Origin: Ferribacterium limneticum
GTDB taxonomy: Bacteria > Pseudomonadota > Gammaproteobacteria > Burkholderiales > Rhodocyclaceae
Length of the DNA: 64,000 nt
Assembly (NCBI RefSeq): GCF_020510585.1
Contig: NZ_CP075190.1
Location: 3,408,001-3,472,000 of the forward strand
Reading direction: 5' to 3'
The stretch's first letter is position 1; every line of letters starts with the position of its first letter. The notes below the pieces were generated by a model. The model did no database searches. It was not told where the DNA came from and worked only from the letters and a program-made list of their open reading frames with translations. Shown here one piece after another: positions 11,694-61,043 of this stretch. A program made the translations under genes and the position numbers.

Positions 11694-11732
11694 GCGAATC
11701 CTGCGGTCAACCGGGTTTACTACGTGAAACGT

Positions 11733-11768
11733 AAAAAAGCCGCCAAATTGAAATTGGCGGCTTTTTCT
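11733..11768 (+). terminator. intrinsic terminator after secF
   Basis: Stem GCCGCCAA (11739-11746) with TTGGCGGC (11754-11761), flanked by A and T runs, so it can work on both strands. It separates secF from the convergent FliD-like gene. Just upstream, 11702-11716 is a core copy of the dispersed motif (minus orientation). Confidence 0.85.
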
Positions 11769-11785
11769 TTGGGGTGAGACTGCGA

Positions 11786-12784
11786 CTAAACTCCGTAAAG
11801 CAGCTTGTAGGCTGCGGCGGCCTGCGTAATCGGGCTGGAGGACTGAGGCGTGTCACCTAGCCCGAATTCGCTCTGCAGGGCGGGTTTGTTTTCGCTGATG
11901 AAGTTAATCGCACGGCTCAAGTTATCCAGCCGGTTCTTGATGAAGTTGCCGTCAGAATTCAGCATTTCCGCCGATTTGGCGAAATTCGCACTGAACTCGT
12001 GCAGGGTATTCACGACCCCGGTCTTGTTGCTGGCCAGCGCAGAGTCCAGACGGGCTGTATCGAGCACCACCAGTTTGCTGCCGGGGTCAATGGTGAGGCC
12101 CATGTCGCTCAAGCCACGTACGCCATTCCGACCATTTAAAACAGTCGAAACACTTTGCTCCAACTCATAGCGGGACACCTGCGCGGCCTGGGTGCCGGCC
12201 AGAATCCCGTCAGTCTGCATGTCCGCATCGAAGCGCTTGACCCAGTCGTTGTACTGGCTTGCGAATTTCTGCAGCTGCGATTTGATATTTTCGTTATCGG
12301 TTGATGTACCGATGCCGTCGAGGTTCTGGGCATTCTGCTGCATCTCGGAAAGGGCAGACTGCATCTGGCTCAATTCAGAAAACTGCGATTGGTAGGCAAG
12401 CTCCTGTTTGTTGATAAAGGTCATCAACTGGTAAGCCGCTTCGGGTGCGGAAAGCGCGCTAACGCGGCCCGTCGCCGACAAACTGTTGATTGAGCCGCCA
12501 GCGCTCGACGACGCTACCGTAGTCACCGGCGAATTCAGCGAAGCCAGCAGCGCGTTCAGACCGCCTGAATCGTTGGCCAGCCCAGCCGTCGAGGATGAAT
12601 TCATCAGCGCGCCAAGCGTTTGCTCCTGGAGACTGGCAACACGCAGCGCAATATCCGAAAAAGAGACGCCCTGCACCGAATCCATACGCTGCCCGGTCCC
12701 GCCTGTGGACGTTTGATCGCTACTGCGACCCAGACTGGAAAGCGCAAGCTTGATATTTGCATTCGTTACATTGCTGGCTGACAT
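11786..12784 (-). CDS. FliD-like flagellar/filament-associated protein
   Basis: A 332-residue protein rich in Ser, Ala and Asn with no signal peptide. The C-terminal half resembles flagellar cap proteins: NGVRGLSDMGLTIDP, then VVLDTARLDSALASNKTGVV, followed by helices. Compare the FliD pattern 'L.DIGI....G.L.LD...L..AL..N...V'. The N-terminal half (DIALRVASLQEQTLGALM) is less familiar. It is shorter than typical FliD and is not beside flagellin, so it may be a relative with another role. A GGAGG site is 4-5 bases before the ATG. Confidence 0.5.
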   Translation of the reverse strand: MSASNVTNANIKLALSSLGRSSDQTSTGGTGQRMDSVQGVSFSDIALRVASLQEQTLGALMNSSSTAGLANDSGGLNALLASLNSPVTTVASSSAGGSINSLSATGRVSALSAPEAAYQLMTFINKQELAYQSQFSELSQMQSALSEMQQNAQNLDGIGTSTDNENIKSQLQKFASQYNDWVKRFDADMQTDGILAGTQAAQVSRYELEQSVSTVLNGRNGVRGLSDMGLTIDPGSKLVVLDTARLDSALASNKTGVVNTLHEFSANFAKSAEMLNSDGNFIKNRLDNLSRAINFISENKPALQSEFGLGDTPQSSSPITQAAAAYKLLYGV

Positions 12785-12906
12785 AAAACCTCCAACGGCG
12801 ATAAAGGAAGCGCTCCCCCTAGCCCTTTTCCTGGTTCACATACACGCAAGAAACAAGCCTTAGTGTGCGCCGATATCGCCAAGCGGGATAGCGTGCTTTC
12901 AGCCGT

Positions 12907-12955
12907 CCAGCACACCGGGTTTGGTGTGCTGGTTCGTTGCGGGAGTCGGCTCCCG
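12907..12955 (-). promoter_or_regulatory. two strong hairpins in the leader of the FliD-like gene
   Basis: In the 297 bases upstream of the FliD-like start there is a perfect 10-bp stem (12907-12916 with 12923-12932, six-base loop). Seven bases away is a 6-bp GC stem with a four-base loop (12940-12945 with 12950-12955). Neither is followed by a T run on the minus strand. They could be a structured 5' leader, or the end of the cytochrome b561 transcript. I do not recognise a known riboswitch class. The rest of 12785-13081 shows nothing further. Confidence 0.4.
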
Positions 12956-13081
12956 GGAAAGTTTCTCTTTTTGGGGCTATTCACCTAATTTGTGACGTCG
13001 CCTGACCGAAGCTTTGCCGGCAGAAACTGCCGATCTCGGCCCCGGCTTAAATCACGGCACGCCCACTGCCTTCACGCCCAA

Positions 13082-13774
13082 TCACCAGCTCGGCGTTTCC
13101 ACCGCTGGCAGGAGGGGTGGAGGCTCAGGTAACCAGGCCCCACTGGCGCCATAGACCACTGCACCAGCGATGCTCACGGCAACGACCAAGGCGACCATTC
13201 CGCCACCCTTGGCTGACTCGCCGGATACCCCTTCCTTCCAGCCTGTAATCATCGGCTTGACCAGGTTGTCTTTCTTGAAGTGACCATGGAAGGCAACGGC
13301 AACAACATGGAGGACGACGAGGGCGATCAGCACATTGGAGAGCAGTTCGTGAATACCGCTCAGGCGATCGCTCAGCGACTTGTCGATCAGTTCAAACAAA
13401 GGGCCGACGAAGGCGATGTCGTCGTTGGCGAACAGGCCGCTGAGGACTTGTACGGTCAACAGGAAAATAAGGCTAAAAACGGAAAGTCCGCCAAGCGGAT
13501 TGTGGCCCACGCCGCGCCATTCGCCTTTCAGATAGACCTTGATTTTGGCCGGCGTCGGGAAGAACTGGGCGAAGCGCGCATAGGTCGAGCCGGCGAAGCC
13601 CCAGACGATACGAAAGGCGATCAGGCCGATGATCGCCAGCCCGATCTTGCCGTGCAGGTCGATCAGCTTGCCGCCCAGTTGTCCGCTGACGATCGCCGCG
13701 ATGACGGCGAGCGCCAGCAGCCAGTGAAACAGGCGGGTGGGCAGATCCCAGAGGCGAATTCGTTGGCTGTTCAT
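13082..13774 (-). CDS. cytochrome b561-type membrane cytochrome b
   Basis: A 230-residue integral membrane protein of the Ni,Fe-hydrogenase/cytochrome b561 group, expected to carry two hemes and pass electrons between quinones and a c-type cytochrome. The start MNSQRIRLWDLPTRLFHW matches the family; longer in-frame starts are unlikely. Candidate heme ligands are the His in RLFHW, in DLHGKIG, in GIHELLSN and in VVLHVVAVAFHG. There are about four membrane helices plus a C-terminal one near VALVVAVSIAGAVV. It lies directly downstream of cytochrome c', a pairing known in proteobacteria. Confidence 0.88.
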   Translation of the reverse strand: MNSQRIRLWDLPTRLFHWLLALAVIAAIVSGQLGGKLIDLHGKIGLAIIGLIAFRIVWGFAGSTYARFAQFFPTPAKIKVYLKGEWRGVGHNPLGGLSVFSLIFLLTVQVLSGLFANDDIAFVGPLFELIDKSLSDRLSGIHELLSNVLIALVVLHVVAVAFHGHFKKDNLVKPMITGWKEGVSGESAKGGGMVALVVAVSIAGAVVYGASGAWLPEPPPLLPAVETPSW

Positions 13775-13792
13775 GTGCGCTACCTTGCTTGG

Positions 13793-13818
13793 TAAAAAAA
13801 CAGGCACCCGCAGGTGCC
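13793..13818 (-). terminator. intrinsic terminator between cytochrome c' and b561 genes
   Basis: On the minus strand GGCACC-TGCG-GGTGCC (13803-13818) is followed by a T run (A run at 13793-13800). It sits right after the cytochrome c' stop, so the c-type protein is probably made in excess and the b561 gene read by leak-through. Confidence 0.7.
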
Positions 13819-13842
13819 CGTGGCTGCGATCGAAATACGGCT

Positions 13843-15054: not shown

Positions 15055-15055
15055 A

Positions 15056-16453
<1,398 letters not shown>

Positions 16454-16517
16454 TTACCCGCCCGGCGGAGCCGTCGCCATACGCTATAATCGAAGTCCCC
16501 AAATCAGAGAGCGCACG

Positions 16518-18983: not shown

Positions 18984-19530
18984 CGGGCCCAGCCCCTTTC
19001 TTCCATTCACCCAGCGGCAAAATCACCGCTGGCTGTCCATTATCGACGAACCAGCTATCGACGACGAAGCGAGGCACTTCGCCATCCGTTTTTTCCTCGA
19101 TCACCGCCGACCAGTGCACGAAAAATACGGTGGCGACGTCCCGCACCACCGGCTCCAGAACCCGGTGCCAACGCAGGTAGCCACGCGCCTCAAGCAGCTT
19201 GAGCAGGCGCGTCGTCGAGGTCGAGTGATCGAGGCAATCCATCTTGCCGGGGACATGCCCATCATCGTAGTTGCCACCGCGGTCGTTGTGGATGTCCGAC
19301 TGCTCGCCAGCCCAGGCGTAAAGCCGACCGACTACCTCGGATATCATTTTTCGCTCATTTTCCGGGTTGACCGCAGCAAACAGCATGCGCCGCACTTCGC
19401 CGAGCTGCCCTTCGGTGAACCGGATGTCGGCCTGCGCCAGACAACCATAGCCATAACAAATGCGCACCGTTTCGTCGGCGTGCAGCACGCCCGGGAGCAC
19501 GAGCAGAAGCGAAAGCAGCCAGCGACGCAT
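18976..19530 (-). CDS. secreted hypothetical protein between nudJ and mnmA
   Basis: A 184-residue protein with a signal peptide ([20 protein letters not shown], cleavage near HA-DE), so it acts in the periplasm or outside. The mature part has [24 protein letters not shown] and several conserved-looking Trp. The Cys-Asp-His arrangement is suggestive of a papain or transglutaminase-like fold, but this is a guess. The start at 19530 shares a base with the nudJ stop, and its end overlaps mnmA, so all three are co-translated. An antisense copy of the dispersed motif lies at 19341-19380. Confidence 0.65.
19341..19380 (+). repeat. dispersed motif copy inside the secreted protein gene
   Basis: CATTTTCCGGGTTGACCGCAGC, antisense to the gene, read A-A-V-N-P-E-N. 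Confidence 0.6.
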
Positions 19531-21264: not shown

Positions 21265-22275
21265 ATGAAGGCTCTCATCGTCGCCCCCTCCTGGATCGGC
21301 GACACGATCATGGCGCAGCCGCTGTTTGCGCGCCTGCACGCCAAACATCCCGGCCTCCAGCTCGACGCCATCGCCCCGCGCTGGGTAGCGCCCGTCCTGC
21401 ACCGTATGGCGGAAATCAGCGACGTCCTCGACAGCCCCTTCGGCCACGGCCAGCTGTCGCTCAAGCCGCGCTGGAAACTCGCCCGCCAGCTGGCTGCCCG
21501 CGGCTACGATGCCGTCTACGTCCTGCCCAATTCGCTCAAATCGGCGCTCTTGCCGTGGCTGGCCGGCATTCCGCAGCGCGTCGGCTTCACCGGTGAATCG
21601 CGTTACGGCCTGATCAACGTCCGCCATACGCTCGACAAGGCCGCCCTGCCGCTCATGGTCGAACGCTTTGCCCAACTGGCCGAAGCGCCGGGTCAGCCGC
21701 TGGGCCATTTCATTTTTAGGCCAAAAATCCGGTCGACCGTGGAAGACCAGCAAAAAGCCCTGGCCGAACTGGCCATCGAGCGCCCGGCCCGCGTCGTCGC
21801 CTTCTGCCCCGGCGCCGAGTACGGCCCGGCCAAACGCTGGCCGGCCGCCCACTTCGCCGCGCTGGCCAAAAAACTGGCCGAACAGGGCAGTGCCATCTGG
21901 CTCTTCGGCTCGCCCAAGGACCACGCCGTCGCCGAGGAAATCTCGCAACTCGCCCCCGGCCTGTGCCGCAACCTGTGCGGCGCCACCTCGCTGACGCAGG
22001 CCGTTGATCTGCTGGCCATGGCCGAACTGGTCGTCTGCAACGACTCCGGTTTGATGCACGTCGCCGCTGCCCTCGACCGGCCGATCGTCGCGCTCTACGG
22101 CTCATCGTCACCCGGCTTCACACCGCCGCTCTCCGACCGCGCCGACATCCTGAGCCTCAATCTCGAATGCAGCCCCTGCTTCAAGCGCGAATGCCCGCTC
22201 GGCCACTTCGATTGCCTCAACAAACTGCTCCCCGAGCAGGTCTTTGCCGCCTGCCAGAAAAGGATGACGCGATGA
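21265..22275 (+). CDS. waaF: lipopolysaccharide heptosyltransferase II
   Basis: A 336-residue family 9 glycosyltransferase that adds the second heptose to the lipopolysaccharide inner core on the cytoplasmic face of the inner membrane. The N-terminus MKALIVAPSWIGDTIMAQPL, FCPGAEYGPAKRWPA, and the ADP-heptose site VCNDSGLMHVAAAL are diagnostic. The stop overlaps the next start (ATGA). An in-sense copy of the dispersed motif at 21706-21745 encodes K-I-R-S-T-V-E. Confidence 0.96.
   Translation: MKALIVAPSWIGDTIMAQPLFARLHAKHPGLQLDAIAPRWVAPVLHRMAEISDVLDSPFGHGQLSLKPRWKLARQLAARGYDAVYVLPNSLKSALLPWLAGIPQRVGFTGESRYGLINVRHTLDKAALPLMVERFAQLAEAPGQPLGHFIFRPKIRSTVEDQQKALAELAIERPARVVAFCPGAEYGPAKRWPAAHFAALAKKLAEQGSAIWLFGSPKDHAVAEEISQLAPGLCRNLCGATSLTQAVDLLAMAELVVCNDSGLMHVAAALDRPIVALYGSSSPGFTPPLSDRADILSLNLECSPCFKRECPLGHFDCLNKLLPEQVFAACQKRMTR
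21706..21745 (+). repeat. dispersed motif copy inside waaF
   Basis: CATTTTTAGGCC, then AAAAATCCGGTCGACCGTGG. In sense with the gene, in the usual frame. Confidence 0.65.
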
Positions 22276-22703: not shown

Positions 22704-23665
22704 AGCTGCCCAAGCCCTATCACGCACCGAGCTGGCTGCCCGGCGGACAGGCGCAAACCTTGTGGCCGCTGCTCATCAAGCCGCACCCGCTCAAATTGCG
22801 CCGCGAACGCTGGGAAACGCCCGATGGCGATTTCATCGACGTCGATCACCTTGACGGCCCAGCAAACTCGCCGCTACTTGTCCTTTTCCACGGCCTCGAA
22901 GGCAGCGCCCGCAGCCATTACGCCATCTCGACCGCTCACGCCTGCAAGGCCGCCGGTTGGCGTCTCGCCCTGCCACATTTTCGCGGCTGCTCGGGCGAAC
23001 TGAACCACCGGCCACGCGCCTACCATTCCGGCGACGCCGAAGAAATCGACTGGATCCTGCGCCGCCTGCACGCCGCCAACGGCGGCCGCAAGCTCCACGC
23101 CGCCGGCGTTTCGCTCGGCGGCAACGCCCTGCTCAAATGGGCCGGCGAATGTGGCGCGGCAGCTGGCGAACTGGTTACCGGCGTCGCCGCCTTCTGCGCC
23201 CCGCTCGACCTCGCCGCCTGCGGCAACCATCTGGCCAACGGTTTCAACCGAATCTACACCCGCCACTTCCTGACCACGCTCAAAGCCATTTCGGCCAGCC
23301 GCCTGCAGCAGTTCCCCGGCCTTTTCGACGAAACCCGCATGCGCCGGGCGATCAATCTCTACGAATTCGACGACGCGGTGACCGCCCCCATTCACGGCTT
23401 TGCCGGCGCTGACGATTACTGGCGACGCGCCTCGGCCAAACCCTGGCTGAAATCGATTGCCGTGCCGACGCTCACGGTCAACCCGAAAAATGACCCGTTT
23501 TTGCCATCACGCTATCTGCCGACGGCCGCCGAAGTCAGCCCCTTCGTCCGCCTCGAACAGCCCGAAAGCGGCGGACATGTGGGATTTGTCACAGGTTCTT
23601 TTCCGGGAAATCTGGACTGGCTACCGCAAAGGCTTTTACACTTCTTCCTTTTTGAAACGTCATAA
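22700..23665 (+). CDS. YheT-family alpha/beta hydrolase
   Basis: A 321-residue hydrolase. LLVLFHGLEGS forms the oxyanion region, AAGVSLGGNAL carries the nucleophile Ser, and ESGGHVGFV near the end carries the catalytic His. This layout is that of the YheT/EMB8 group, whose substrates are largely unknown. The likely start is a TTG at 22700, overlapping the NTF2-like stop (TTGA). An antisense copy of the dispersed motif at 23470-23502 encodes T-L-T-V-N-P-K-N. Confidence 0.88.
   Translation: MKLPKPYHAPSWLPGGQAQTLWPLLIKPHPLKLRRERWETPDGDFIDVDHLDGPANSPLLVLFHGLEGSARSHYAISTAHACKAAGWRLALPHFRGCSGELNHRPRAYHSGDAEEIDWILRRLHAANGGRKLHAAGVSLGGNALLKWAGECGAAAGELVTGVAAFCAPLDLAACGNHLANGFNRIYTRHFLTTLKAISASRLQQFPGLFDETRMRRAINLYEFDDAVTAPIHGFAGADDYWRRASAKPWLKSIAVPTLTVNPKNDPFLPSRYLPTAAEVSPFVRLEQPESGGHVGFVTGSFPGNLDWLPQRLLHFFLFETS
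23470..23502 (-). repeat. dispersed motif copy inside the YheT-like gene
   Basis: On the minus strand: CATTTTTCGGGTTGACCGTG. Antisense to the gene, in the T-V-N-P frame. Confidence 0.65.
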
Positions 23666-26814: not shown

Positions 26815-27113
26815 TCAGCGCATCTTCGGATTGAGCGAGCCGCGGTTGTAATCCTTGTCGCCGGGCATCACTGTCCGGCCGACACCAAATAGACCGCCCT
26901 GCCCAGCGGCCGGGCGGGCCTTGTTTTCCGGATACTCAGCGGCGACTTTCTGCGCCTCGGCCGCCATCGCGGCATCGACAAACTCCCAGCGACCATTCGG
27001 GAAAAGACGCACTTTTTTCCCGTCGACCGTAGCAGCCTCGAGCGGCGTGCGGTCGAGTTCGGCGGCGAAGCCCTGTCCCGCCGCCAAGACCAGCATCAGC
27101 GCAAAAGCCGCTT

Positions 27114-29840: not shown

Positions 29841-29876
29841 GCTTCAATTTTGGCCCTTTTTTCCGGTTGACCGCAG
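29841..29876 (+). repeat. dispersed motif copy between genes
   Basis: TTCAATTTTGGCCC, T tract, then TTCCGGTTGACCGCAG. It lies between alaS and the next terminator. The rest of 29736-29885 shows nothing else. Confidence 0.8.
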
Positions 29877-29885
29877 AAATGAAAA

Positions 29886-30342: not shown

Positions 30343-31086
30343 TCAGCCGCGCAAATGCAAGCCTTTGTAAGCACTTGTTTCCGCGACGAAGAGGTCGAGG
30401 CGATCGGTAAATATGGCGCTGACGCCACGCTCGAACAGCGATTCTGCGGCTTTTTTCGTGTTGACCGTGTAACACAGCACGGGAATGCCATTGGCCTGCG
30501 CCTCGGCCAGCACATCGTCGCTCAAATGCCTGGCAGCGCAATGCAGGGTAACCGCTCGCAGACGCCGCACCACGGCCAGCCAGTCGGCCGGCACCCGTTC
30601 GAAGAGCACGCCGCGCGGAATCTGTGGCGCCAGATCGCGGGCAATTTCGAGCGCCTCCAGCGAAAACGACGAGATCAGCGGCTGCACCGTGGCGCCCTGC
30701 CACAGGCCGGTGCTCAGGCGAGCCACCGTTTCCGCCGTCTGGCGCTCGAGCCCCGCCGCCGGCTTGATCTCGACATTGGCCAGCAGGCCATATTCGCGGC
30801 AGGCGGCAACCGCATCGGCATAACAGGGAACCCGCTCGCCATCGCCGGCATCCAGCGCAAAGAGTTGCGCATCGGGCGTCTCGCCGACCAAGCCCTGGCC
30901 ATTCGTCGTCCGCTCCAGCGTTTCGTCGTGAATGAGCACGGGCGTGCCATCGCCGGACAACATGACATCAAACTCGACCGCCGAAAAGCCCATCCGACCC
31001 GCCAGCCGGATACCGGCCAGCGTATTTTCCGGGGCCAGCGCCCCGCCACCGCGATGACCAATCCAGCGCGGCAGCGGGAAATTCAT
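30343..31086 (-). CDS. ugpQ: glycerophosphodiester phosphodiesterase
   Basis: A 247-residue TIM-barrel enzyme that cleaves glycerophosphodiesters to glycerol-3-phosphate and an alcohol. The signature is GHRGGGALAPENTLAG with catalytic His-Arg, VEFDVMLSGDGTPVLIHDETL with Glu-Asp and the second His, and NVEIKP. There is no signal peptide, so it is cytosolic like UgpQ. The start shares one base with the ugpB stop. An antisense motif copy at 30446-30472 encodes Y-T-V-N-T-K-K. Confidence 0.93.
   Translation of the reverse strand: MNFPLPRWIGHRGGGALAPENTLAGIRLAGRMGFSAVEFDVMLSGDGTPVLIHDETLERTTNGQGLVGETPDAQLFALDAGDGERVPCYADAVAACREYGLLANVEIKPAAGLERQTAETVARLSTGLWQGATVQPLISSFSLEALEIARDLAPQIPRGVLFERVPADWLAVVRRLRAVTLHCAARHLSDDVLAEAQANGIPVLCYTVNTKKAAESLFERGVSAIFTDRLDLFVAETSAYKGLHLRG
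30446..30472 (+). repeat. dispersed motif copy inside ugpQ
   Basis: GGCTTTTTTCGTGTTGACCG; antisense to the gene. Confidence 0.5.
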
Positions 31087-37529: not shown

Positions 37530-38070
37530 GCTTCCGCCCTTGCGGGGCGTCTCACTTTTTCTTGCTTCGCCAAGAAAAAGTAAGCAAAAAGAAGGCGACC
37601 CTGGGTCGGTGCCGGCTGCGCCGGTTCCCTGTGCTACTCGGCAGGCCGGGCGGCTGCGGAACTCGGGGCTTTGCCCCTCAAACAGTCCTCGCCGACTGCC
37701 CCCGGCCTTCCTGCGTTGCTCGGCACCTCCCAAGGGGCCCGGTGAAACACCCCGTGCTTGAGCTTGGGTGCCTGAATAACAGATTTCGTTTTTGGGCTTT
37801 TTTCCGGTTGACCGTGGAAGTCTGTTTTTTGGGCAAAACGGTCGAGCGTGGACGCCTTTGGGGTCCCCATGAGAGGCGCTGAGCAACGCAGGCGGGCCGG
37901 GGGAAGTCGGCTTGCGTTGTCTGAGCCGAAGGCGAGTTTAGCAAGCCGCCCGGTCTGCCGAGTAGCGCAAGGGACCCGAAGGGCGCCGACCTTGGGGTCG
38001 CCTTTTCTTTGGCTACTTTCTTTTGGCGAAGCAAAAGAAAGTACGCCCGCCAGCAAGGCGGACCCCCATG
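37530..38070. repeat. large imperfect palindromic repeat unit
   Basis: About 540 bases with no credible gene. The left part (about 37545-37745) is an imperfect reverse complement of the right part (about 37842-38045). Both outer ends carry a small hairpin, ACTTTTTCTTGCTTCGCC with its complement on the left, and TACTTTCTTTTGGCGAAGC with its complement on the right. The centre (37781-37820) holds a copy of the dispersed motif. I recall similar 'AAGCAAAAGAAAGTA' repeats from other proteobacterial genomes. Its frames of 70-180 codons are probably not genes. No transposase and no evident target duplication. Confidence 0.75.
37781..37820 (+). repeat. dispersed motif copy at the centre of the palindromic repeat
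   Basis: GATTTCGTTTTTGGGC, T tract, TTCCGGTTGACCGTGGAAG. A clean copy close to consensus. Confidence 0.85.
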
Positions 38071-39883: not shown

Positions 39884-41115
39884 GCCGTTGCCTCGTCAAT
39901 CAATTCAATCCAGTGCCGCACGGGCAGTGTACTACCCGCCTGCAAGTGGGTCAGGCAGCCGATATTGGCCGTCGCCGCCAGCGCCGGGCCACCGGCATTG
40001 AGGGCAGCCAGCTTGTTGGTGCGCAGTTTGTTGGCCAGTTCGGGCTGCAGGACGGAATAGGTGCCGGCCGAGCCACAGCATAGATGGCTGTCGGCGACCG
40101 GCGTCAATTCGTAGCCGGCGGCTTGCAGCAAGACCTCGATGCTGCCGCGAATCTGCAGGCCGTGTTGCAGGGTACAGGGCGAATGAAAGGCCAGCTTGCC
40201 GCGTTTTTCGGTGTGGCACGCCAGCAAGGGCAGCAATGCGGCTTTCTCACCGGCCAGAATTTCTGAGGGATCGCGGCACAGAGCGCTGATTTTTGCCGCT
40301 TTTTCGGCGTAGACCGCGTCATCGGCCAGGATGTGTTCGTAGTCCTTGATCTGCACGCCGCAGCCGGAGGCAGTGGCAACGATGGCCTCGACACCTGCCT
40401 CAACATGCGGCCACCAGGCGTCGATGTTGCGCCGCATGTCGTTCTTGGCCGTTTCGTGGTCGTTGAGGTGGAAACGCACGGCGCCGCAGCAACCGGCCTT
40501 GGCTTCTTCAAACAATTCGATCCCGAGCTTGTCGAAGACGCGCGCCGTGGCTGCGTTGATATTGGGCGCCAGCGAAGGCTGGACGCAACCGGCCAGGGCC
40601 AGCATGCGGCGCCCGTGGGCGGCCGGCTTCGGCCACGGCGCGCCGGACGGCTGGGCGGGCGGCAACTTGTCGGCCAGAGCGGTCGGCAAGAGCGGCCGGA
40701 CCGCCCGGCCAACGGCAATAGCCGGGCCAAACAGCGCGGGGTTGGGCAACACGGTTCTCAGCAGCGCGCGTGTCACACGGTCAGCGAAACGGCGCGGCAG
40801 TTTTGCCTCGACCACGGCGCGCCCGACATCGAGCAGATGGCTGTATTTGACGCCCGACGGGCAGGTCGTTTCGCAGGAACGGCAGGTCAGGCAGCGGTCG
40901 AGGTGGGTGCGCGTCTTTTCGGTCACCGCCTTGCCTTCGAGCACCTGCTTGATCAGGTAGATGCGGCCACGCGGACCGTCGAGTTCGTCGCCGAGCAGTT
41001 GATAGGTCGGACAGGTCGCCGTGCAGAAGCCGCAATGGACGCACTTGCGCAGGATTTCCTCGGCGATCTGGCCGGCGTGGGTGGCGCGCAGTTCGGCGGT
41101 AATTTTCGTATCCAT
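39880..41115 (-). CDS. glcF: glycolate oxidase iron-sulfur subunit
   Basis: A 411-residue subunit of glycolate dehydrogenase that passes electrons from GlcDE to the quinone pool. Two 4Fe-4S sites are at CVHCGFCTATCPTY and CLTCRSCETTCPSG near the N-terminus. Two CCG-type domains follow (KAGCCGAVRFH, HLCCGSAGTYS). I chose the start MDTKITAELR, four bases after glcE; upstream frame is glcE shadow. Confidence 0.96.
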   Translation of the reverse strand: MDTKITAELRATHAGQIAEEILRKCVHCGFCTATCPTYQLLGDELDGPRGRIYLIKQVLEGKAVTEKTRTHLDRCLTCRSCETTCPSGVKYSHLLDVGRAVVEAKLPRRFADRVTRALLRTVLPNPALFGPAIAVGRAVRPLLPTALADKLPPAQPSGAPWPKPAAHGRRMLALAGCVQPSLAPNINAATARVFDKLGIELFEEAKAGCCGAVRFHLNDHETAKNDMRRNIDAWWPHVEAGVEAIVATASGCGVQIKDYEHILADDAVYAEKAAKISALCRDPSEILAGEKAALLPLLACHTEKRGKLAFHSPCTLQHGLQIRGSIEVLLQAAGYELTPVADSHLCCGSAGTYSVLQPELANKLRTNKLAALNAGGPALAATANIGCLTHLQAGSTLPVRHWIELIDEATA

Positions 41116-41119: not shown

Positions 41120-42181
41120 CTAAAACTCCGCGTACAGCCGGCCGGGGTTGAGAATGCCCTGCGGGTCGAAGGCTTTTTTGAGGCGGCGATGCAAGGCGAG
41201 CAAGGCTGGCGGCAACTCGGCGAATGCCCCGTCCAGACAGCGCAGCGATTCCGGCGCGCGGTAGAGCACGGCGTGGCCGCCGAGGCTGGCGGCGGCAACA
41301 CGTACTGCCTGGTGATCGCCATCGACTTCGCCGGCATACCAGCGCAAAGCCCCGCCCCACTCGATGGCGCGCAGGCCGTCGAGTTCCGGACACGGCGCGG
41401 TCGATGGCAGCGCCAGTCGCCACAACGGGCTGGCAGCGAAGGCCGGATGCGTTTGCTCACGTATCGAATTCCAGTGTTTTTCCGGGTTGACCGTGGAATT
41501 GCCGCCGAGCTTGCTGGTAGCCGCCTCGACCGCCGCCCGCGCGCCGGAGAGGCGCAGCCAGAGCTGGCCGTCATGCCAGAAGGAAGCCGAAATCGGCAGC
41601 GGCTGGCCGCCCCAGTCGTTGAGTCGGCGAATGGCTTCGGTCGCATCGCACGCGAAAACCAGCGTCGTTTCGGCCACCGGCCTGGGCAGCACTTTGAGCG
41701 TGACTTCGGCGATGACACCCAGCGTGCCGAGACTACCGGCGATGAGACGCGAAACATCGTAGCCGGCAACGTTTTTCATAACCTGGCCACCGAAACTGAG
41801 CATCTGGCCGGTCCCGTCGACCAGCTTGACGCCGAGCACGAAGTCGCGCACGGCACCGGCCTGTTGCCGACGCGGGCCGGAGAGGCCGGCGGCGACGCAG
41901 CCGCCGACTGTGGCGCCAGCGAAATGTGGGGGTTCGAAGGCGAGCATCTGGCCCTTTTCGGCCAGCGTGGCCTCGACCTCGGCCAGCGGCGTGCCGCCTT
42001 TGGCCGTGATGTAGAGCTCGGTCGGCTCGTAGGCGACGATGCCGCAATGGCCGGAAACATCGAGAACTTCGCCGGCCAGCAGGCCACCGTAGAAATCCTT
42101 GCTGCCGGCGCCGCGGATGCGCAGCGGGGTGCGGCTTTCGCAAGCGGCTTTGACGGCGGAAACGATGGTGTCAAGCTGCAT
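41120..42181 (-). CDS. glcE: glycolate oxidase FAD-binding subunit
   Basis: A 353-residue FAD-binding subunit of glycolate dehydrogenase. It has the PCMH-type motif RIRGAGSKDFYGG, then AEVEATLAEKGQMLAFEPPHF and GGCVAAGLSGPRR. The start at 42181 shares a base with the glcD stop. An antisense copy of the dispersed motif (41466-41500) encodes N-S-T-V-N-P-E-K-H-W, within the C-terminal half. Confidence 0.93.
   Translation of the reverse strand: MQLDTIVSAVKAACESRTPLRIRGAGSKDFYGGLLAGEVLDVSGHCGIVAYEPTELYITAKGGTPLAEVEATLAEKGQMLAFEPPHFAGATVGGCVAAGLSGPRRQQAGAVRDFVLGVKLVDGTGQMLSFGGQVMKNVAGYDVSRLIAGSLGTLGVIAEVTLKVLPRPVAETTLVFACDATEAIRRLNDWGGQPLPISASFWHDGQLWLRLSGARAAVEAATSKLGGNSTVNPEKHWNSIREQTHPAFAASPLWRLALPSTAPCPELDGLRAIEWGGALRWYAGEVDGDHQAVRVAAASLGGHAVLYRAPESLRCLDGAFAELPPALLALHRRLKKAFDPQGILNPGRLYAEF
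41466..41500 (+). repeat. dispersed motif copy inside glcE
   Basis: GTGTTTTTCCGGGTTGACCG then TGGAATT; antisense to the gene. Confidence 0.75.
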
Positions 42182-43671: not shown

Positions 43672-44924
43672 TCTACGAGGATGGCGCGAAAATCATTGAC
43701 GTTGGTGCGCGTCGGGCCGGTGACCAGCAGGTCGCCGAGTTCGGAAAAGCAGGTCCACGCGTCGTTGTTGGCCAGCCGGGCGCGCAGGTCGAGTCCGGAC
43801 GCCCGCGCCCGGGCCGGCGTCGTTGGGTCGATGAAGGCGCCGGCGTTGTCTTCGCTGCCGTCGATGCCGTCGGTGTCGGCGGCCAGGGCGTGAATGCCCG
43901 GCGCGCCGTCGAGCGCCAGGGCCAGGCTGAGCAGGAATTCGGTGTTGCGCCCGCCGTGGCCGTCGCCTTGCATCGTCACCGTCGTTTCGCCACCGGAGAG
44001 CAGGACGCAGGGCTTTTTGGCCGGAAAACCGTGTTGACCGCAGGAGCGCGCCACGCCGGCCATGACCTTGGCGACTTCGCGCGCCTCGCCTTCGATGGCA
44101 TCGCCGAGGATGAGCGGCGTCATGCCGAGCCGTTGCGCCTCAACGGCGGCCGCTTCGAGCATCTGGCGCGGACTGGCGATGAGGCGGAATTCGCTGTTGG
44201 CCAGATGCGGATCGCCCGGCTTGGGCGTTTCCAGTTGGCCGGATTCGAGGTGAAGACGCAGATCGGAGGGAATGGCGATGTGGTGGAAATCGAGCACATT
44301 CAGCGCATCGGCGCAGGTCGTCGGATCGCCGACGGTCGGGCCGGAGGCGATGACAGCCGGGTCGTCGCCGGGCACGTCTGAAATGGCCAGGGTCAGCACC
44401 GAGGCCGGCCACGCGGCGGCGGCGAGGCGACCGCCCTTGAGGGCTGACAGATGTTTGCGCACACAGTTGATTTCGCCAATGCTCGCCCCCGAGCGCAGCA
44501 GCGCCGAGGTGAGCGCCCGCTTTTCGGCCAGCGTGACACCGGGCGCCGGGGCAGCAAGCAAGGCCGAGCCGCCACCGGAAATCAGGGCCAGCACGCGGTC
44601 TTCCACGGTCAACCGGGAAATTTGCGCAAAAATGGAAAGCGCTGCTGCCTCGCCGGCGGCGTCCGGGACCGGGTGTGCGGCTTCGATGATCTTGATCCGT
44701 TCGCACGGCACGCCGTGGCCGTAGCGCGTGACGACCGTTCCTTCGAGCGGCCCGGACCAATGTTGCTCGACGGCCCGCGCCATGGCGGCCGAGGCTTTGC
44801 CGGCGCCGATGACGATGAGTCGGCCGCCATCGTCAGGCGGCAGATGGGTCGGCACGCACAAGGCCGGATCGGCCGCAGCAATGGCGGAGTCGAACAGGCG
44901 GCGCAGGATGTCGCGCGGAGTCAC
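43668..44924 (-). CDS. ttuD: glycerate 2-kinase (MOFRL/TtuD type)
   Basis: A 418-residue enzyme that phosphorylates glycerate, the last step from glyoxylate or hydroxypyruvate to central metabolism. It has VIGAGKASAAMARAVE, LISGGGSALLAAPA, the LSGGETTVT motif and DTDGIDGSEDNAGA near the end. The start is GTG at 44924, overlapping the hyi stop (GTGA). It carries two copies of the dispersed motif: strong in-sense at 44601-44640 (I-S-R-L-T-V-E) and weak antisense at 44013-44048. Confidence 0.94.
   Translation of the reverse strand: MTPRDILRRLFDSAIAAADPALCVPTHLPPDDGGRLIVIGAGKASAAMARAVEQHWSGPLEGTVVTRYGHGVPCERIKIIEAAHPVPDAAGEAAALSIFAQISRLTVEDRVLALISGGGSALLAAPAPGVTLAEKRALTSALLRSGASIGEINCVRKHLSALKGGRLAAAAWPASVLTLAISDVPGDDPAVIASGPTVGDPTTCADALNVLDFHHIAIPSDLRLHLESGQLETPKPGDPHLANSEFRLIASPRQMLEAAAVEAQRLGMTPLILGDAIEGEAREVAKVMAGVARSCGQHGFPAKKPCVLLSGGETTVTMQGDGHGGRNTEFLLSLALALDGAPGIHALAADTDGIDGSEDNAGAFIDPTTPARARASGLDLRARLANNDAWTCFSELGDLLVTGPTRTNVNDFRAILVE
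44601..44640 (-). repeat. dispersed motif copy inside ttuD
   Basis: On the minus strand: ATTTCCCGGTTGACCGTGGAA. In sense with the gene. Confidence 0.75.
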
Positions 44925-46597: not shown

Positions 46598-46625
46598 GCG
46601 GGCGGCGCTAGGCGGCCGAGATATT

Positions 46626-46661
46626 TCGGTTTTGCTGGTTTTTTCCGGTTGACCGTGGGAT
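46626..46661 (+). repeat. dispersed motif copy between genes
   Basis: GGTTTTGCTGG, T tract, TTCCGGTTGACCGTGGGATT. Close to consensus, just past the 3' end of the small gene. Confidence 0.85.
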
Positions 46662-47287: not shown

Positions 47288-48109
47288 ATGAATCCCCTTG
47301 AATTCAGCACCCTCGCCGTCACGCTGGTCGATCACATTGCCGAGGTTCGCCTCAACCGGCCAGACAAGTCGAATGCGATGAACGAGGCGATGTGGCAGGA
47401 AATCCGTCAGGCTTTCGAATGGGTAGATGCCACGCCGGAGGCACGCGTCGCCATCCTGAGCGGCGAAGGGAAAAACTTCTGCGCCGGGATCGACCTCGCG
47501 ATGCTCGGCAGCATCCAGCAACAGATTGCTCACGCCGATGGCGCCCGCAGTCGCGAAACCTTGCGTCGGCTAATTCTCGACCTGCAGGATTGCCTGAGCA
47601 GCATCGAACGCTGCCGCAAACCGGTGCTCGCTGCCATCCAGGGCGCCTGCGTCGGTGGGGCGCTTGATCTCGTTACCTGTTGCGACATGCGCTACGTGGC
47701 ACCGGATGCGGTTTTTTCGATCAAGGAAATCGATCTCGGCATGGTGGCCGACGTTGGCACGCTGCAACGCCTGCCGCGCCTGATTGGCGAAGGGATGACG
47801 CGGGAACTGGCGTACACCGGCCGCACTGTGGACGCCGATGAAGCGGAAAAGCTCGGCCTGATCAATTTCAAATTTGGCGATTTTTCCCGGTTGACCGTGG
47901 AAGTGCGCAAAATCGCCCAAACCATCGCCGCCAAGTCGCCCCTGGCCATTCGCGGCAGCAAGGACGTGCTGAATTTCAGCCGCGATCACTCTGTCGCCGA
48001 CGGCCTCAATTACGTCGCCGGCTGGAATGCGGCGATGCTGCTCTCGGCCGACCTTGACGAATGCATCGCCGCCCAGCGCGAGAAGCGGGCGGCGCAGTTC
48101 GGGGACTGA
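47288..48109 (+). CDS. enoyl-CoA hydratase/dienoyl-CoA isomerase-like crotonase
   Basis: A 273-residue crotonase-fold enzyme. FCAGIDLAML and ACVGGALDLVTCCDMRY form the oxyanion hole. EIDLGMVADVGTLQRLPRL matches delta3,5-delta2,4-dienoyl-CoA isomerases, suggesting a role in breaking down unsaturated fatty acids. An AGGAG site precedes the ATG. A sense copy of the dispersed motif (47861-47905) encodes G-D-F-S-R-L-T-V-E within the C-terminal region. Confidence 0.88.
   Translation: MNPLEFSTLAVTLVDHIAEVRLNRPDKSNAMNEAMWQEIRQAFEWVDATPEARVAILSGEGKNFCAGIDLAMLGSIQQQIAHADGARSRETLRRLILDLQDCLSSIERCRKPVLAAIQGACVGGALDLVTCCDMRYVAPDAVFSIKEIDLGMVADVGTLQRLPRLIGEGMTRELAYTGRTVDADEAEKLGLINFKFGDFSRLTVEVRKIAQTIAAKSPLAIRGSKDVLNFSRDHSVADGLNYVAGWNAAMLLSADLDECIAAQREKRAAQFGD
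47861..47905 (+). repeat. dispersed motif copy inside the crotonase gene
   Basis: ATTTCAAATTTGGCG, T tract, CCCGGTTGACCGTGGAAG. In sense with the gene. Confidence 0.85.
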
Positions 48110-49140: not shown

Positions 49141-49180
49141 CATTTCAATTTTGGCGATTTTTTCGGGTTGACCATGGAAG
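49141..49180 (+). repeat. dispersed motif copy right after the metzincin stop
   Basis: CATTTCAATTTTGGCG, T tract, CGGGTTGACCATGGAAG. One base after the stop codon. Confidence 0.8.
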
Positions 49181-52035: not shown

Positions 52036-53481
52036 TTATGCCGTTCCACCCACCGTCAGTCCATCAATACGCAAAGTGGGTTGTCCGACACCGACCGGAA
52101 CGCTCTGTCCATCCTTGCCGCAGGTGCCGACACCGGGGTCGAGTTTGAGGTCATTGCCGATCATCGAAACGCGGGTCAGCGCGTCCGGGCCGTTGCCGAT
52201 CAGCGTCGCGCCCTTGATCGGGCGGGTCACCTTGCCGTCTTCGATGAGGTAGGCCTCGCTCATCGAAAAGACAAACTTGCCGCTCGTGATATCGACCTGA
52301 CCACCGCCGAAATTGGCGGCGTAGATGCCCTTCTTGACCGACTTGATGATTTCCGCCGGATCGTGCTTGCCGGCCAGCATCATGGTGTTGGTCATGCGCG
52401 GAATGGGCAGGTGGGCGAAGGATTCGCGCCGGCCGTTGCCGGTCGGGGCGACACCCATGAGGCGGGCGTTCAGGCTGTCCTGCAGATAGCCCTTGAGGAT
52501 GCCGTCCTCGATCAGCACGGTGCGCTGCGTCGTGTTGCCTTCGTCGTCGATGTTGAGCGAACCGCGGCGGTCGACAATCGTGCCGTCGTCGATGACGGTG
52601 ACGCCCTCGGCGGCAACGCGCTGGCCAACCCGGCCGGAGAAGGCCGAACTGCCCTTGCGGTTGAAGTCGCCTTCGAGCCCGTGGCCGACGGCTTCATGCA
52701 ACAGGATGCCGGGCCAGCCGGCACCGAGTACGACGGTCATCTGGCCGGCCGGGGCCGGATCGGCGTGGAGGTTGGTGACGGCCTGATGGACGGCTTCCTT
52801 GGCGTAGCGCTGGAGGACTTCGTCGTCGAAATAGCCGAAATCGAACCGGCCGCCGCCGCCCGACGAGCCCTGCTCGCGCTTGCCGTTTTCTTCGATGATG
52901 ACCGAGATCGAGCAGCGCACCAGCGGCCGGATGTCGGCGGCCAGACGGCCATCGGAGCCGGCGACGAGGACCACTTCGTATTCGCCGGCGAGCGAGGCCA
53001 TGACTTGCAGGACGCGCGGATCGAGCGCCCGGGCAAAGCCTTCAAGGCGTTCGAGCAACTTGACCTTGGCTTCGGCCGGCAGGGAGGCAATCGGGTCGTT
53101 CGGGACGTACAGCGACCTTGCCACGGTCGACGGGAAAAATTGGCCAAAATTGGAATTCTGCCCGGTCGCGGCAATCGCCCGCACGGCGTTGGCGGCATCG
53201 CCGAGCGCCTGCGAACTGATATCGTCGGAATAGGCAAAGGCCGTTTTCTCGCCCGAGATGGCGCGCACGCCGACGCCCTGGTCGATGTTGAAGCTGCCCG
53301 ACTTGACGATGCCTTCGTCGAGACTCCACGCCTCGGAGCGCGAGTACTGGAAATAGAGATCGGCGTAATCGACCTGATGCGTCAGGATCTGGCCGAAGGT
53401 TCGCGACAGGTCTCCTTCGGTGAGCGAGAAGGGGGCCAGCAGCAGGGATTCGGCCTGGGCCAACGCGCTGTTTTGAGTCAT
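52036..53481 (-). CDS. tldD: metalloprotease TldD
   Basis: A 481-residue subunit of the TldD-TldE (PmbA) protease, which processes small peptides such as microcins. The family zinc motif lies in [16 protein letters not shown], with further signatures [19 protein letters not shown] and [13 protein letters not shown]. Start [10 protein letters not shown]; the partner tldE is not here. An in-sense motif copy at 53119-53160 encodes F-F-P-S-T-V-A. It is in the common yhdP-nit-tldD cluster. Confidence 0.95.
53119..53160 (-). repeat. dispersed motif copy inside tldD
   Basis: On the minus strand: CCAATTTTGGCCAATTTTTC then CCGTCGACCGTGGCA. In sense with the gene. Confidence 0.8.
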
Positions 53482-53491: not shown

Positions 53492-54301
53492 TTAAAGTTT
53501 ACGGTGGGCAAGCGCCGGCAGGCTCTCGCGAATTTCGGCAAGTCGCTGGTGATTGAGGTCGGCGATAACGACGCCCGGCCCCTTCAATTTGCGGTCGAGA
53601 ATCTCGCCCCACGGGTCGATGATCATGCTGTTACCGTGCGTCATGCGACCATTTTCATTGCGCCCGCCCTGTCCGACAGCGAGAAGATAACACTGGTTCT
53701 CGATGGCCCGGGCGCGCAGCAAAATTTCCCAGTGCGCCTTGCCCGTCGTTTCGGTGAAGGCGGCCGGCACGAGGATCAGGTCAACCGGCGCCAAGGCCCG
53801 GTACAACTCGGGAAAGCGCAGGTCGTAGCAGATCGACAGGGCGACCTTGCCGAACGGCGTGTCGACTGCGACGGGTTGGTCGCCCGGCTCAATGAAGCTG
53901 GCCTCATCGTAGGACTCCTCGCCTTTCTTGAAGCCGAACAGGTGGATCTTGTCGTAACGCGCGACGCATTCGCCAGCCGGGTTGAAGACCAGGCTGGCAT
54001 TGCGCATCCTGTCCGAACGGCTGGCGGTCAACGGGATCGAACCGGCAAAAATCCAGATGCCGTGGCGCTGCGCCGTCTCGGCCAGCCAGGACTGGACAGG
54101 ACCGGCGCCAAAATCCTCGCGCGCCCGGACGCGGTCGGCATCGACCGCACCGATGATGGGAAAATATTCAGGCAGCACGACCAGTTGGGCGCCCTGCGTG
54201 ACAGCCTCGTCGATCAGCCGGCCGGCCGTCGCCAGATTGTCGGCCACGCGAGGCCCGGAAATCATCTGCACGGCGGCGATACGGCAATTCTGCTTGCTCA
54301 A
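53492..54301 (-). CDS. nitrilase-family carbon-nitrogen hydrolase
   Basis: A 269-residue hydrolase with the Glu-Lys-Cys triad: Glu in VVLPEYFPI, Lys in [13 protein letters not shown], Cys in [13 protein letters not shown]. It resembles the Nit1/NitA group, which in several organisms removes deaminated glutathione; the function here is inference. The start is a TTG at 54301 overlapping the yhdP stop (TTGA). tldD follows after ten bases. Confidence 0.9.
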
Positions 54302-58194: not shown

Positions 58195-58294
58195 GCGTCG
58201 AACCGCTTTGCCAGAGGGGGGAATAGATCACTACAATCGGGGACTGAATAAAAGCGACATTCTACCTTTTCGGCCAAGCTGCCGACGGACCATC

Positions 58295-60991
58295 ATGGAC
58301 ACCACCCTCGATCCCCGCTGGCAAGCGGCTGTACACCACAGCCGTTACCTCGCCAATTTGCTGCAGGCGCACCCGGAACTGATTCCCGAACTGCACACCA
58401 CCTGGCTGCAGCCACTCAGCGAAGCCATGCTGCTGGCGCCGCTGCAACAGGAATTTGTCGACGACGACGCCGTTAAATCTGCCCTGCGCCGCCTGCGCCA
58501 CCGCGCCATGGCCCATCTTGCCCTGCGCGACTTGGGCGGACTGGCGCCGCTGGCCGAAATCGTCGAATGCATGACCCTGCTTGCCGACGTGACGACCAAT
58601 TTCGCGCTTGAGCACTATCACCGCCAGCTCGTCGCCAGCTACGGCGAACCGCTCGACAAGACCGGTCAGCCGCAGCGCCTGCTGATCATCGGCATGGGCA
58701 AGCTGGGCGGGCGCGAACTCAATGTGTCGTCCGACGTCGACTACATTTTTATCTACCCGGAAGACGGCGACACGGCCGGCCCGAAGAGCATCGAGAACTT
58801 CGATTTCTTCACCCGTCTCGGCAAGCGCATCATCGGCGCGCTTGGCGATTTGACGGCTGACGGCCAGGTTTTCCGCGTCGACATGCGCCTGCGGCCGAAT
58901 GGCGACTCCGGCCCGCTGGTCTGTTCGCTCGACGCGCTGGAAAATTACTTCATTACCCAGGGCCGCGAATGGGAGCGCTACGCCTGGATCAAGGGCCGCA
59001 CCATGAATGCCGGCGAGAATCTGCAGCCGAACTGGGTGACGGCCATGCAGAAAGTCGCCCGGCCCTTCGTTTTCCGCAAATATCTCGACTTCGGCGCCAT
59101 CAATGCCATGCGCGACCTGCACGCCCAGATCAGCCGCGAAGTGGCGCGCAAGGACATGGCCGACCACGTCAAGCTCGGCCCCGGTGGCATCCGCGAAATC
59201 GAGTTCATGGCCCAGGTATTCCAGCTCATCCGCGGTGGCCGCGACCCGGCGCTGCAGATCCGGCCGACGCTTTCCGTGCTCAAGCTGCTCGTCGACCGCA
59301 AGCTGATCCCGGCCGAAACCGAAAACGAGTTGCGCGAAGCCTACGTCTTCCTGCGTCGTCTCGAGCACCGGCTGCAATACGTCGAGGACAAGCAGACGCA
59401 CATGCTGCCGATCGACGCCGAGAATCGGCAAAATATCGCCGTCAGCATGGATTTCCCGGACTGGCCGGCCATGTTGGCCGTGCTCGACAGTCACCGCGAA
59501 AAGGTCAGCCAGCATTTCGGCGCCATCTTCTCCGACCCGGAAGCCGGCGAGCACCCGCTGACCGGCCTGTGGCAAGGCCAGCTCGATGAGGACACGGCAA
59601 TCGAAGCCTTCGGCAATCTCGGCTACCGCCACCCGAAGGAAGCCATCGCCCGCTTGGCCGAACTGCGCGCCGCCAGCCGTTACCTGCAACTGCCGGCGAC
59701 CAACCGGGCCCGCCTCGACGCCGTTGGTCCGCGCCTGATCGAGGCGGCCGGCGCGACGCCCGCCCCCGATACAACACTGGCCCGCGGCCTCAACTTCCTC
59801 GAAGGCATCGCCCGCCGCGGTGCCTATCTGGCGCTGTTGCAGCAATACCCGATGGCGCTGCGCCGGGTCGCCGACATGATCTGCGCCTCGAACTGGGCGG
59901 CCGATTACCTGAACCGCCACCCGCTGCTCCTCGACGAACTGCTCGACCCGCGCCTCTATGAAATCGCCACCAACTGGGCCGGCTTTCGCGAAATCCTGCG
60001 CGACAACCTGGCCCAGCACATCGACGACACCGAGCGCGAAATGGACATCCTGCGCGAAATGCACCACGGCCAGGTGTTCCGGCTGCTGGCGCAGGATCTG
60101 GCCGGATTGCAGACCATCGAACGCCTGTCCGACCACCTGACCGAACTGGCCGACACCATTGTCCAGGAAACCCTGCCGCTGGTCTGGGCCAAGATCAGGA
60201 ATCGCCATTGCGCCACACCGAAATTCGCCGTCATCGGTTACGGCAAGATGGGCGGCAAGGAGCTCGGCTACGCCTCCGACCTCGACCTCGTCTATCTCTA
60301 TGACGACGACGATCAGGACGCCCCGGAAAACTACGCCCGGCTCGGTCAGCGCCTGAACTCCTGGCTGTCCAGCCAGACGCCGGCCGGCATCCTGTTCGAA
60401 ACCGACCTGCGCCTGCGCCCGAATGGCGAATCCGGCCTGCTTGCCGTTTCGGTCGACTCCTTCCGCGACTACGAACTCAAAAATGCCTGGACCTGGGAGC
60501 ATCAGGCCCTGACGCGGGCCCGCTTCTGCGCCGGCGACCCGGCCGTCGGCCAGCGTTTCGAGGAAATCCGTTGCGAAATCCTGCGCCTGCCGCGCGATCT
60601 GGCCAAGCTCAAGGAAGAAGTCGTCGCCATGCGCCAGAAAATGGTCGACGCGCACGGCTCGAAGAGCGACACACTGTTTGGCCTCAAGCACGATCCGGGC
60701 GGCATCATCGATGTCGAATTCATCGTCCAGTACCTGATCCTCGGCTATTCGCACCTGCACGCCAGCCTGACCGGCAATCTCGGCAACATCGCCCTGCTCC
60801 GCATGGCCGGAGAACTGGGCTTGATCGACCCGCAACAGGCCGAAGCGGCCGGCAACGCCTATCGCGAATACCGTCGACTGCAACACGCCAAGCGCCTGTC
60901 GGCCTTTCCCAAGGCGCCGATTCCGCGCGAGGAGGTGGAAAAGCACATCGCCGCCGTCCGCCGGCTGTGGGTGGCGGTTTTCGGTAATTGA
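58295..60991 (+). CDS. glnE: glutamine synthetase adenylyltransferase/deadenylase
   Basis: An 898-residue bifunctional enzyme that adds and removes AMP on glutamine synthetase, so nitrogen supply controls its activity. Two nucleotidyltransferase domains are clear: IGMGKLGGRELNVSSDVDYI near residue 135 (removing half) and VIGYGKMGGKELGYASDLDL near residue 650 (adding half). I chose the ATG at 58295. It is divergent from yhdP over about 100 bases. Confidence 0.97.
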   Translation: MDTTLDPRWQAAVHHSRYLANLLQAHPELIPELHTTWLQPLSEAMLLAPLQQEFVDDDAVKSALRRLRHRAMAHLALRDLGGLAPLAEIVECMTLLADVTTNFALEHYHRQLVASYGEPLDKTGQPQRLLIIGMGKLGGRELNVSSDVDYIFIYPEDGDTAGPKSIENFDFFTRLGKRIIGALGDLTADGQVFRVDMRLRPNGDSGPLVCSLDALENYFITQGREWERYAWIKGRTMNAGENLQPNWVTAMQKVARPFVFRKYLDFGAINAMRDLHAQISREVARKDMADHVKLGPGGIREIEFMAQVFQLIRGGRDPALQIRPTLSVLKLLVDRKLIPAETENELREAYVFLRRLEHRLQYVEDKQTHMLPIDAENRQNIAVSMDFPDWPAMLAVLDSHREKVSQHFGAIFSDPEAGEHPLTGLWQGQLDEDTAIEAFGNLGYRHPKEAIARLAELRAASRYLQLPATNRARLDAVGPRLIEAAGATPAPDTTLARGLNFLEGIARRGAYLALLQQYPMALRRVADMICASNWAADYLNRHPLLLDELLDPRLYEIATNWAGFREILRDNLAQHIDDTEREMDILREMHHGQVFRLLAQDLAGLQTIERLSDHLTELADTIVQETLPLVWAKIRNRHCATPKFAVIGYGKMGGKELGYASDLDLVYLYDDDDQDAPENYARLGQRLNSWLSSQTPAGILFETDLRLRPNGESGLLAVSVDSFRDYELKNAWTWEHQALTRARFCAGDPAVGQRFEEIRCEILRLPRDLAKLKEEVVAMRQKMVDAHGSKSDTLFGLKHDPGGIIDVEFIVQYLILGYSHLHASLTGNLGNIALLRMAGELGLIDPQQAEAAGNAYREYRRLQHAKRLSAFPKAPIPREEVEKHIAAVRRLWVAVFGN

Positions 60992-61005
60992 GGGGCGCCA
61001 TGGCC

Positions 61006-61043
61006 ATTTCAATTTTGGCCATTTTTCCCGGTTGACCGTAGCA
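61006..61043 (+). repeat. dispersed motif copy after glnE
   Basis: ATTTCAATTTTGGCC, T tract, CCCGGTTGACCGTAGCAAT. Fifteen bases past the glnE stop. Confidence 0.85.

Follow-up and report, generated by a model that had tools for sequence, protein, structure and literature searches.

The described systems that most resemble the motif reported here are the uptake signal sequences (USS) of the Pasteurellaceae and the DNA uptake sequences (DUS) of the Neisseriaceae. In the excerpted text of the cited papers, USS are described as a GC core flanked on one side by two AT-rich tracts that lie within about two turns of the helix (PMC12616744; PMC7811141), the cores being AAGTGCGGT or ACAAGCGGT (PMC12616744), and DUS as continuous 10-13-mers with a CTG core (PMC3630211; PMC12616744) that occur in lineage dialects (PMC3630211). 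The same kind of excerpt reports that one orientation is favoured in USS and DUS and that uptake sequences in the Pasteurellaceae are biased toward gene termini (PMC2346458), and that foreign elements are recognisable from the distribution of DUS (PMC7371117). The motif treated here was followed up from a window of Ferribacterium limneticum DNA, meaning the whole analysed stretch of 64,000 nucleotides at positions 3,408,001 to 3,472,000 of contig NZ_CP075190.1, for which the original prediction had claimed a real dispersed motif of about 18 copies. On the best reading it is likely an uptake signal sequence, new and of independent evolutionary origin, that has the layout of USS and the dialects of DUS and belongs to neither by its core. 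It would probably also mark a third independent system of self-DNA recognition in bacterial transformation, that of the environmental betaproteobacterial genus Dechloromonas/Azonexus, comprising a bipartite signal, at least three to four dialects as would-be mating barriers, and repeated loss. A search of the open-licence PMC literature by title and start of abstract found no paper on uptake sequences in Dechloromonas/Azonexus.

The motif is strongly over-represented on both strands of its own genome, as is characteristic of DNA uptake sequences. The 14-bp word GGTYGACCGTGGAA has 118 exact copies (57 + 61) in the 4,419,140-bp genome and the reversed word has one; with up to two mismatches, the 14-bp core has 14 matches in the window against 0.96 expected, a number reached in none of 100 shuffles. 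A 38-column matrix, built from 20 other 20-kb stretches of the genome with the window held out and applied with a site cut of 14 bits, finds 22 sites in the window and 97 in the training stretches. One Markov-1 random set of 464 kb contains no matrix site even at 8 bits or more, and the reversed matrix over 464 kb gives none at 14 bits and one at 8-12 bits. Chance or composition as the source of the motif is ruled out by the genome-wide counts, the shuffles and the random and reversed matrix controls, and the claim of a real dispersed motif is borne out. With 20 further stretches added, the total is 162 sites at the cut in 864 kb; because these stretches were picked partly from site-poor regions, scaling to the genome is rough, and the genome-wide copy number would be roughly 800-1100. 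An independent count of the bipartite form, WWWWN15GTYGACCG, gives 964 copies in this genome and 19 for its reversed control.

The consensus of the 38-bp matrix is ATTTCAATTTTGGCCATTTTTTCC-GGTTGACCGTRGNA, and the flanks beyond it have no common consensus in 97 aligned copies. AT content peaks at about -9 to -4 and -20 to -15, counted from the G of GTYGACCG as position 0, so that the AT tracts lie about one and about two turns of the helix away from the centre of the core; on the opposite strand two AT tracts lie downstream of a GC core of approximately CYACGGTCRAC. Relatives share an invariant part made up of an AT tract, 15 bp and GTYGACCG; the near-palindromic core noted in the original prediction is not what is essential. 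Like USS, dialect 1 (D1) of the motif combines a GC core with two one-sided, helically spaced AT tracts, and in the excerpts at hand USS share with it many copies, occurrence on both strands and in and between genes, and more than one type among relatives. The motif differs from USS in that the proximal AT tract is weak in dialect 2 (D2) and in its core, ACGGTCRAC as against AAGTGCGGT, which agrees with neither USS core; the Pasteurellaceae also belong to another class of bacteria, and an uptake role would be assigned to the motif by analogy. Dialects by lineage are a likeness to DUS, whereas the bipartite build and the lack of CTG on either strand of the D1 and D2 words are differences from them. 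Some intergenic copies form larger arrangements: two cores lie 19 bp apart in a composite element at L011:17461/17480, L022:17763/17782 and 18797/18816, and L030:17547/17566, with an inverted repeat TACGGT-AG-ACCGTA in some copies, and a pair of full motifs at L015:11401-11476 (genome 671.4 kb) stands inverted, core to core, between convergent gene ends as a likely hairpin.

The motif is confined largely to one genus, in which the end of its core varies by lineage to give three to four dialects. Of 300 genomes sampled from the order, nine contain any exact 14-mer, that of the window with 118 copies and none of the others with more than three; among 76 genomes of the genus it is frequent in 14, at 19-190 copies. 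A second form, GTYGACCGCAGCA, first seen in G418 among 100-kb samples of eight congeners, has 42-357 copies in 32 genomes of the genus (their reversed controls 0-3) and 0-5 copies in other genera, which is background (241 non-genus of 249 genomes); the D1 and D2 tables cover only genomes with notable counts, the remaining genomes being set to 0. The dialect words comprise GTTGACCGTRGNA, GTYGACCGCAGCA and, in G413, the palindromic ACGGTCGACCGT, which has AT tracts on both flanks, while G416 carries the AT tract and GTYGACCG with no fixed core end. Neither GTYGACCG in excess nor the AT tract is seen in samples of G417, G412, G465 and G432. By the bipartite pattern the 76 congeners fall into two sets, 40 genomes that have 391-1785 copies and 36 that have 9-159, the reversed control not exceeding 31; the line of 300 copies that separates users from non-users was drawn in the gap of 159-391 after the counts were seen. 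Sixteen of the 36 motif-poor genomes exceed three times their own reversed control, an excess that may reflect decay. The original prediction had named a count near expectation or absence from relatives as the outcome that would speak against it, and what is found instead is 118 copies to one and hundreds of bipartite copies in 40 of 76 congeners.

Beyond the genus, the bipartite pattern has at most 27 copies in the family (373 non-genus of 395 genomes). Among the matches listed for the extended D1 pattern (80 loci of at least 120 stretches), record titles name Dechloromonas, Azonexus, Azonexaceae and Rhodocyclaceae, together with one Zoogloeaceae and broad beta-, gamma- and proteobacterial metagenome-assembled genomes; the genus name Dechloromonas/Azonexus is taken from these titles. 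The 17-mer TTTCCGGTTGACCGTRG occurs in five viral contigs of a collection of 2.9 million, and no plasmid matched the 39-nt consensus when searched with it. In a tree of one 1.4-kb region (one gene) from 18 genomes, midpoint-rooted for drawing, nine D1 genomes fall in one group that includes the non-user G432 (support 100/99), two D2 genomes are grouped (100/100), and genomes with few or no copies are scattered over several places. The simplest story, on thin evidence, is one of old presence, dialect drift and several losses. In G218, five D1-type sites lie within about 11 kb (L040:5323-16757) compared with two in the other 80 kb sampled, a cluster that is perhaps an imported segment. Repeats of other kinds were also noted in the samples, namely 7-bp tandem arrays at L070:5558-5844 (G413) and twelve copies with a 67-bp period, CRISPR-like by eye, at L074:42-790 (G418).

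Along the chromosome, sites are evenly spread and avoid low-GC DNA. In stretches of typical composition, defined by GC>0.585, a cut that was picked after the data were seen and that lowers the variance, the spacing of sites is more even than that of random placement (coefficient of variation 0.68 vs 0.89, with 0 of 2000 reaching so low a value), and site counts in 20-kb units show underdispersion, with a variance/mean of 0.34 over 24 units (lower-tail P 0.001). Each of the 21 typical 20-kb stretches around the chromosome holds 2-7 sites, with a mean of 5.4 compared with 1.4 in 19 low-GC stretches, and site count and GC are correlated over the 40 stretches (Spearman 0.80). The seven stretches at 680-820 kb (L202-L207, L016) hold no site, and the genes of this 140-kb lower-GC region encode a phage-type integrase, AcrB, MMPL transporters and GGDEF/EAL proteins, as judged from ten proteins scanned in site-poor regions, one per stretch, of which two had no match. 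The GC content and the integrase suggest that the region was recently acquired, and the depletion in foreign-looking DNA that characterises uptake sequences is found there. Additional site-poor stretches lie at 860-1000 kb. The strands are balanced in each half of the chromosome (46+/53- and 32+/31-), the split assuming an origin near coordinate 1; the GC skew of the stretches flips sign near the middle. The forward share of the bipartite motif among users is 0.499.

Relative to genes, called with a simple codon-based script, 61 of 119 sites lie wholly within a gene, 47 are intergenic and 11 overlap an edge, in DNA of which 82% of bases are coding. Sites per intergenic kb number 0.99 in convergent, 0.43 in tandem and 0.09 in divergent regions, and the distance to a 3' gene end is 50 bp or less in 60 of 99 cases, compared with 16 of 59 for 5' ends. 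Genic sites are more often antisense than sense, both when assigned by core position (50 vs 32) and when wholly inside a gene (52 vs 29). Motif-encoded peptides such as STVNRK and FRLTVE are common to unrelated proteins.

Copies in genes arose mostly via substitution. Six window sites were compared with seven D1 relatives (85-90% identical), four coding sites being alignable. The site in glcE (41461..41498, + strand, 34.5 bits) and the stronger of two sites in a glycerate-2-kinase-like gene (44601..44638, - strand, 50.7 bits) are kept in all seven relatives, with one 27-bp insertion within the latter, and the site in an enoyl-CoA hydratase family gene (47865..47902, + strand, 56.4 bits), which is highly diverged from non-D1 congeners there, is kept in all six relatives that align. 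The second site of the glycerate-2-kinase-like gene (44008..44045, + strand, 17.8 bits) is kept in three relatives and under the cut in four. The two intergenic sites of the six align poorly: that at 46623..46660 (+ strand, 47.8 bits) is found in one of the seven relatives, and that at 49142..49179 (+ strand, 49.7 bits), in a convergent region 2 bp past a called gene end, in none as an orthologue. At the place orthologous to 47865 the D2 user G418 has a near form of the D2 core (CAGGC), and at those orthologous to 41461 and 44008 it has the exact core. Identity of coding motif windows to D1 relatives is 0.911 (40 non-independent comparisons at 10 sites) vs 0.885 in 2366 null windows (p = 0.003), and to samples of eight other congeners, some of them users of other dialects, the figure is 0.620 (33 comparisons at 11 sites, likewise non-independent) vs 0.799 in 2996 null windows (p = 9e-12). 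As identity falls this far below the congener null, the motif replaced coding sequence, mostly of the same length, and no clean 38-bp empty site is seen among 50 comparisons with D1 relatives and a further 42.

Of the approximately 18 copies originally listed for the window, 17 pass the 14-bit cut and the one at 26281 reaches 10.7 bits; all 12 described as strong score 25.8-58.6 bits with the held-out matrix, as do five of the six described as weak at 17.8-41.2 bits, the sixth being 26281. Site starts are shifted by as much as 13 bp relative to the positions first given, and occurrence on both strands, in genes and between them, is confirmed. Five sites are new to the list: 6362..6399 (-, 34.9 bits) within a gene for queuosine biosynthesis (Queuosine_synth, Pfam), 10712..10749 (-, 30.7 bits) across a gene edge, 13448..13485 (-, 41.2 bits) within a gene for a prokaryotic cytochrome b561 (Pfam), and two weak ones, 40284..40321 (+, 16.0 bits) in glcF and 54020..54057 (-, 15.2 bits) in a carbon-nitrogen hydrolase gene (Pfam). 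The remaining genic sites are 16229..16266 (-, 38.8 bits) in purB, 19341..19378 (+, 41.2 bits) in a called gene without a Pfam match, 21707..21744 (+, 46.3 bits) in waaF/rfaF, 23470..23507 (-, 25.8 bits) in a hydrolase-like gene with an NCBIfam match slightly under cut-off, 26997..27034 (+, 24.1 bits) in a short called open reading frame (26815-27096), 30435..30472 (+, 21.3 bits) in a glycerophosphodiester phosphodiesterase gene and 53119..53156 (-, 52.6 bits) in tldD. The intergenic ones are 11699..11736 (-, 25.1 bits) and 61006..61043 (+, 58.6 bits, the top score in the window), both in convergent regions, 29841..29878 (+, 50.8 bits), and 37782..37819 (+, 38.6 bits), which lies within a longer repeated element with shared flanks that also holds the motif at L025:3332 and L028:9595. 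Among the host genes named at the outset, purB, waaF/rfaF, glcE and tldD pass NCBIfam cut-offs, and the supposed ttuD is the glycerate-2-kinase-like gene, below the cut-off of the matching models. The mobile element at 1-4.8 kb is free of copies as claimed, with no site of 14 bits or more in 1-6.3 kb and a sub-cut match of 13.2 bits at 1085 inside a DUF927 gene.

As to competence machinery, a ComEC domain occurs in 71 of 76 genomes, including all 51 of high quality, DprA in 13 of 13 tested genomes and a GspH-type pilin in 16 of 16. Several observations weigh against an uptake role. ComEC of the window strain (L221:8717-10831(-), genome 2.764 Mb) ends inside Lactamase_B (positions 2-159 of 196), a fragment of a DDE transposase lies some 570 bp further on, and since ComEC is truncated the strain may no longer transform; it may be a recent loser of competence in which the tag outlives competence for a while. 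Because the strong user G445 has comEC matches that lie about 34 kb apart (C33:109525-144033), and ComEC is kept by most non-users, motif use does not track comEC. A search for the receptor among the GspH-type pilins of 16 genomes found none: these pilins are present in both users and non-users and show by eye no pattern separating the two, the alignment mixing neighbouring paralogues and being the basis for no claim. Counts by tenths of a gene (11, 12, 12, 6, 6, 8, 5, 7, 9, 6) give no clear terminus bias of the kind reported for the Pasteurellaceae. The evidence for conservation in D1 relatives comes from 10 coding sites in 40 non-independent comparisons; a site at the cut is present in 36 of 50 such comparisons, the other 14 having no site or not being scorable, and the motif window contains gaps in 8 of 50 comparisons with D1 relatives and 20 of a further 42, several without net length change. 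Finally, even spacing and island depletion would fit a chromosome-binding protein as well. Other irregularities of comEC were noted: in G445 and the non-user G465 (C1:2218607-2251879) the matches are split about 33 kb apart near profile residue 26-29, with a weak first piece, as if an element inserts there; the match lies in two overlapping frames in the non-user G432, a split that, with this genome's place inside the D1 group, speaks for the uptake reading; the user G423 has an internal TAG, and the frame is short (236 aa) in the non-user G420.

Dispersed words that organise the chromosome, such as KOPS, matS and AIMS, resemble the motif in being spread over the chromosome, and the original prediction had likened it to such sites as well as to uptake words. 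An intracellular DNA-binding protein that compacts, segregates or insulates the chromosome by way of hundreds of evenly spaced sites would account for the regular gaps and underdispersed counts (0.68 vs 0.89; 0.34), for the depletion in low-GC and integrase-bearing regions and for the helically phased AT tracts. Such a role is nonetheless unlikely, in that half-chromosome polarity is lacking and the forward share of 0.499 argues against a KOPS-like function, 61 of 119 sites are wholly genic and alter protein-coding sequence, and a change of dialect inside one genus with near-absence in congeners would be unexpected if the site were essential for organisation. KOPS and AIMS are rejected because strand polarity is missing (46+/53-, 32+/31-). 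A matS-like role is rejected because of the even spread, since sites in 21 of 21 typical stretches, at 2-7 each, are not ter-confined like matS. The uptake half of the original comparison is backed by architecture, dialects, placement and depletion in foreign-looking regions, and the organising half is weakened by sites that have neither polarity nor regional confinement.

REP/MITE repeats are enriched near gene ends, as the motif is. A family of terminators, or an interspersed repeat of mobile or selfish nature, multiplying through copying would be consistent with the abundance in convergent intergenic regions, the inverted pair at 671.4 kb, the copies in longer repeated elements at window 37782, L025 and L028 and the gaps in motif windows (8/50 and 20/42), but about half of the copies are genic and of mostly substitutional origin, aligned copies share nothing outside the motif, and most coding comparisons lack a clean 38-bp gap, leaving this the most improbable of the alternatives, hardly to be credited. 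As the principal explanation REP/MITE elements are rejected in view of the 61 of 119 genic sites, the missing clean empty sites and the lack of a flank consensus. A Chi-like recombination or repair word favouring intracellular conversion tracts is very improbable too: high copy number in typical chromosome stretches and origin by substitution would suit it, whereas known Chi words are far shorter than this bipartite motif, which spans 27-38 bp and has helical AT tracts, and the motif has dialects and no strand bias.

If the motif is instead an uptake signal, the type-IV-pilus competence machinery would prefer DNA of the same lineage via this tag, with a putative surface receptor, by analogy a minor pilin, reading the GC core and the AT tracts helping DNA to bend into the secretin. 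Copies are proposed to spread in the core genome, by point mutation and recombination, because tagged fragments would be taken up more often, and would settle where they are least harmful, past stop codons or in tolerant protein segments. Newly arrived islands would be DNA that copies have yet to reach. Drift in receptor preference would give rise to dialects, and lineages losing that preference would lose the tag too.

Dechloromonas/Azonexus includes denitrifying and perchlorate-reducing bacteria of environmental importance. The genus has species genomes of both kinds side by side, 40 motif-rich and 36 motif-poor, together with several dialects. If the uptake reading is true, such a third lineage would open to testing the long-standing questions of receptor identity, of why specificity evolves and of whether dialects isolate species. 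The motif would then also aid in marking foreign islands and may offer a route to genetic tools in these environmental denitrifying and perchlorate-reducing bacteria.

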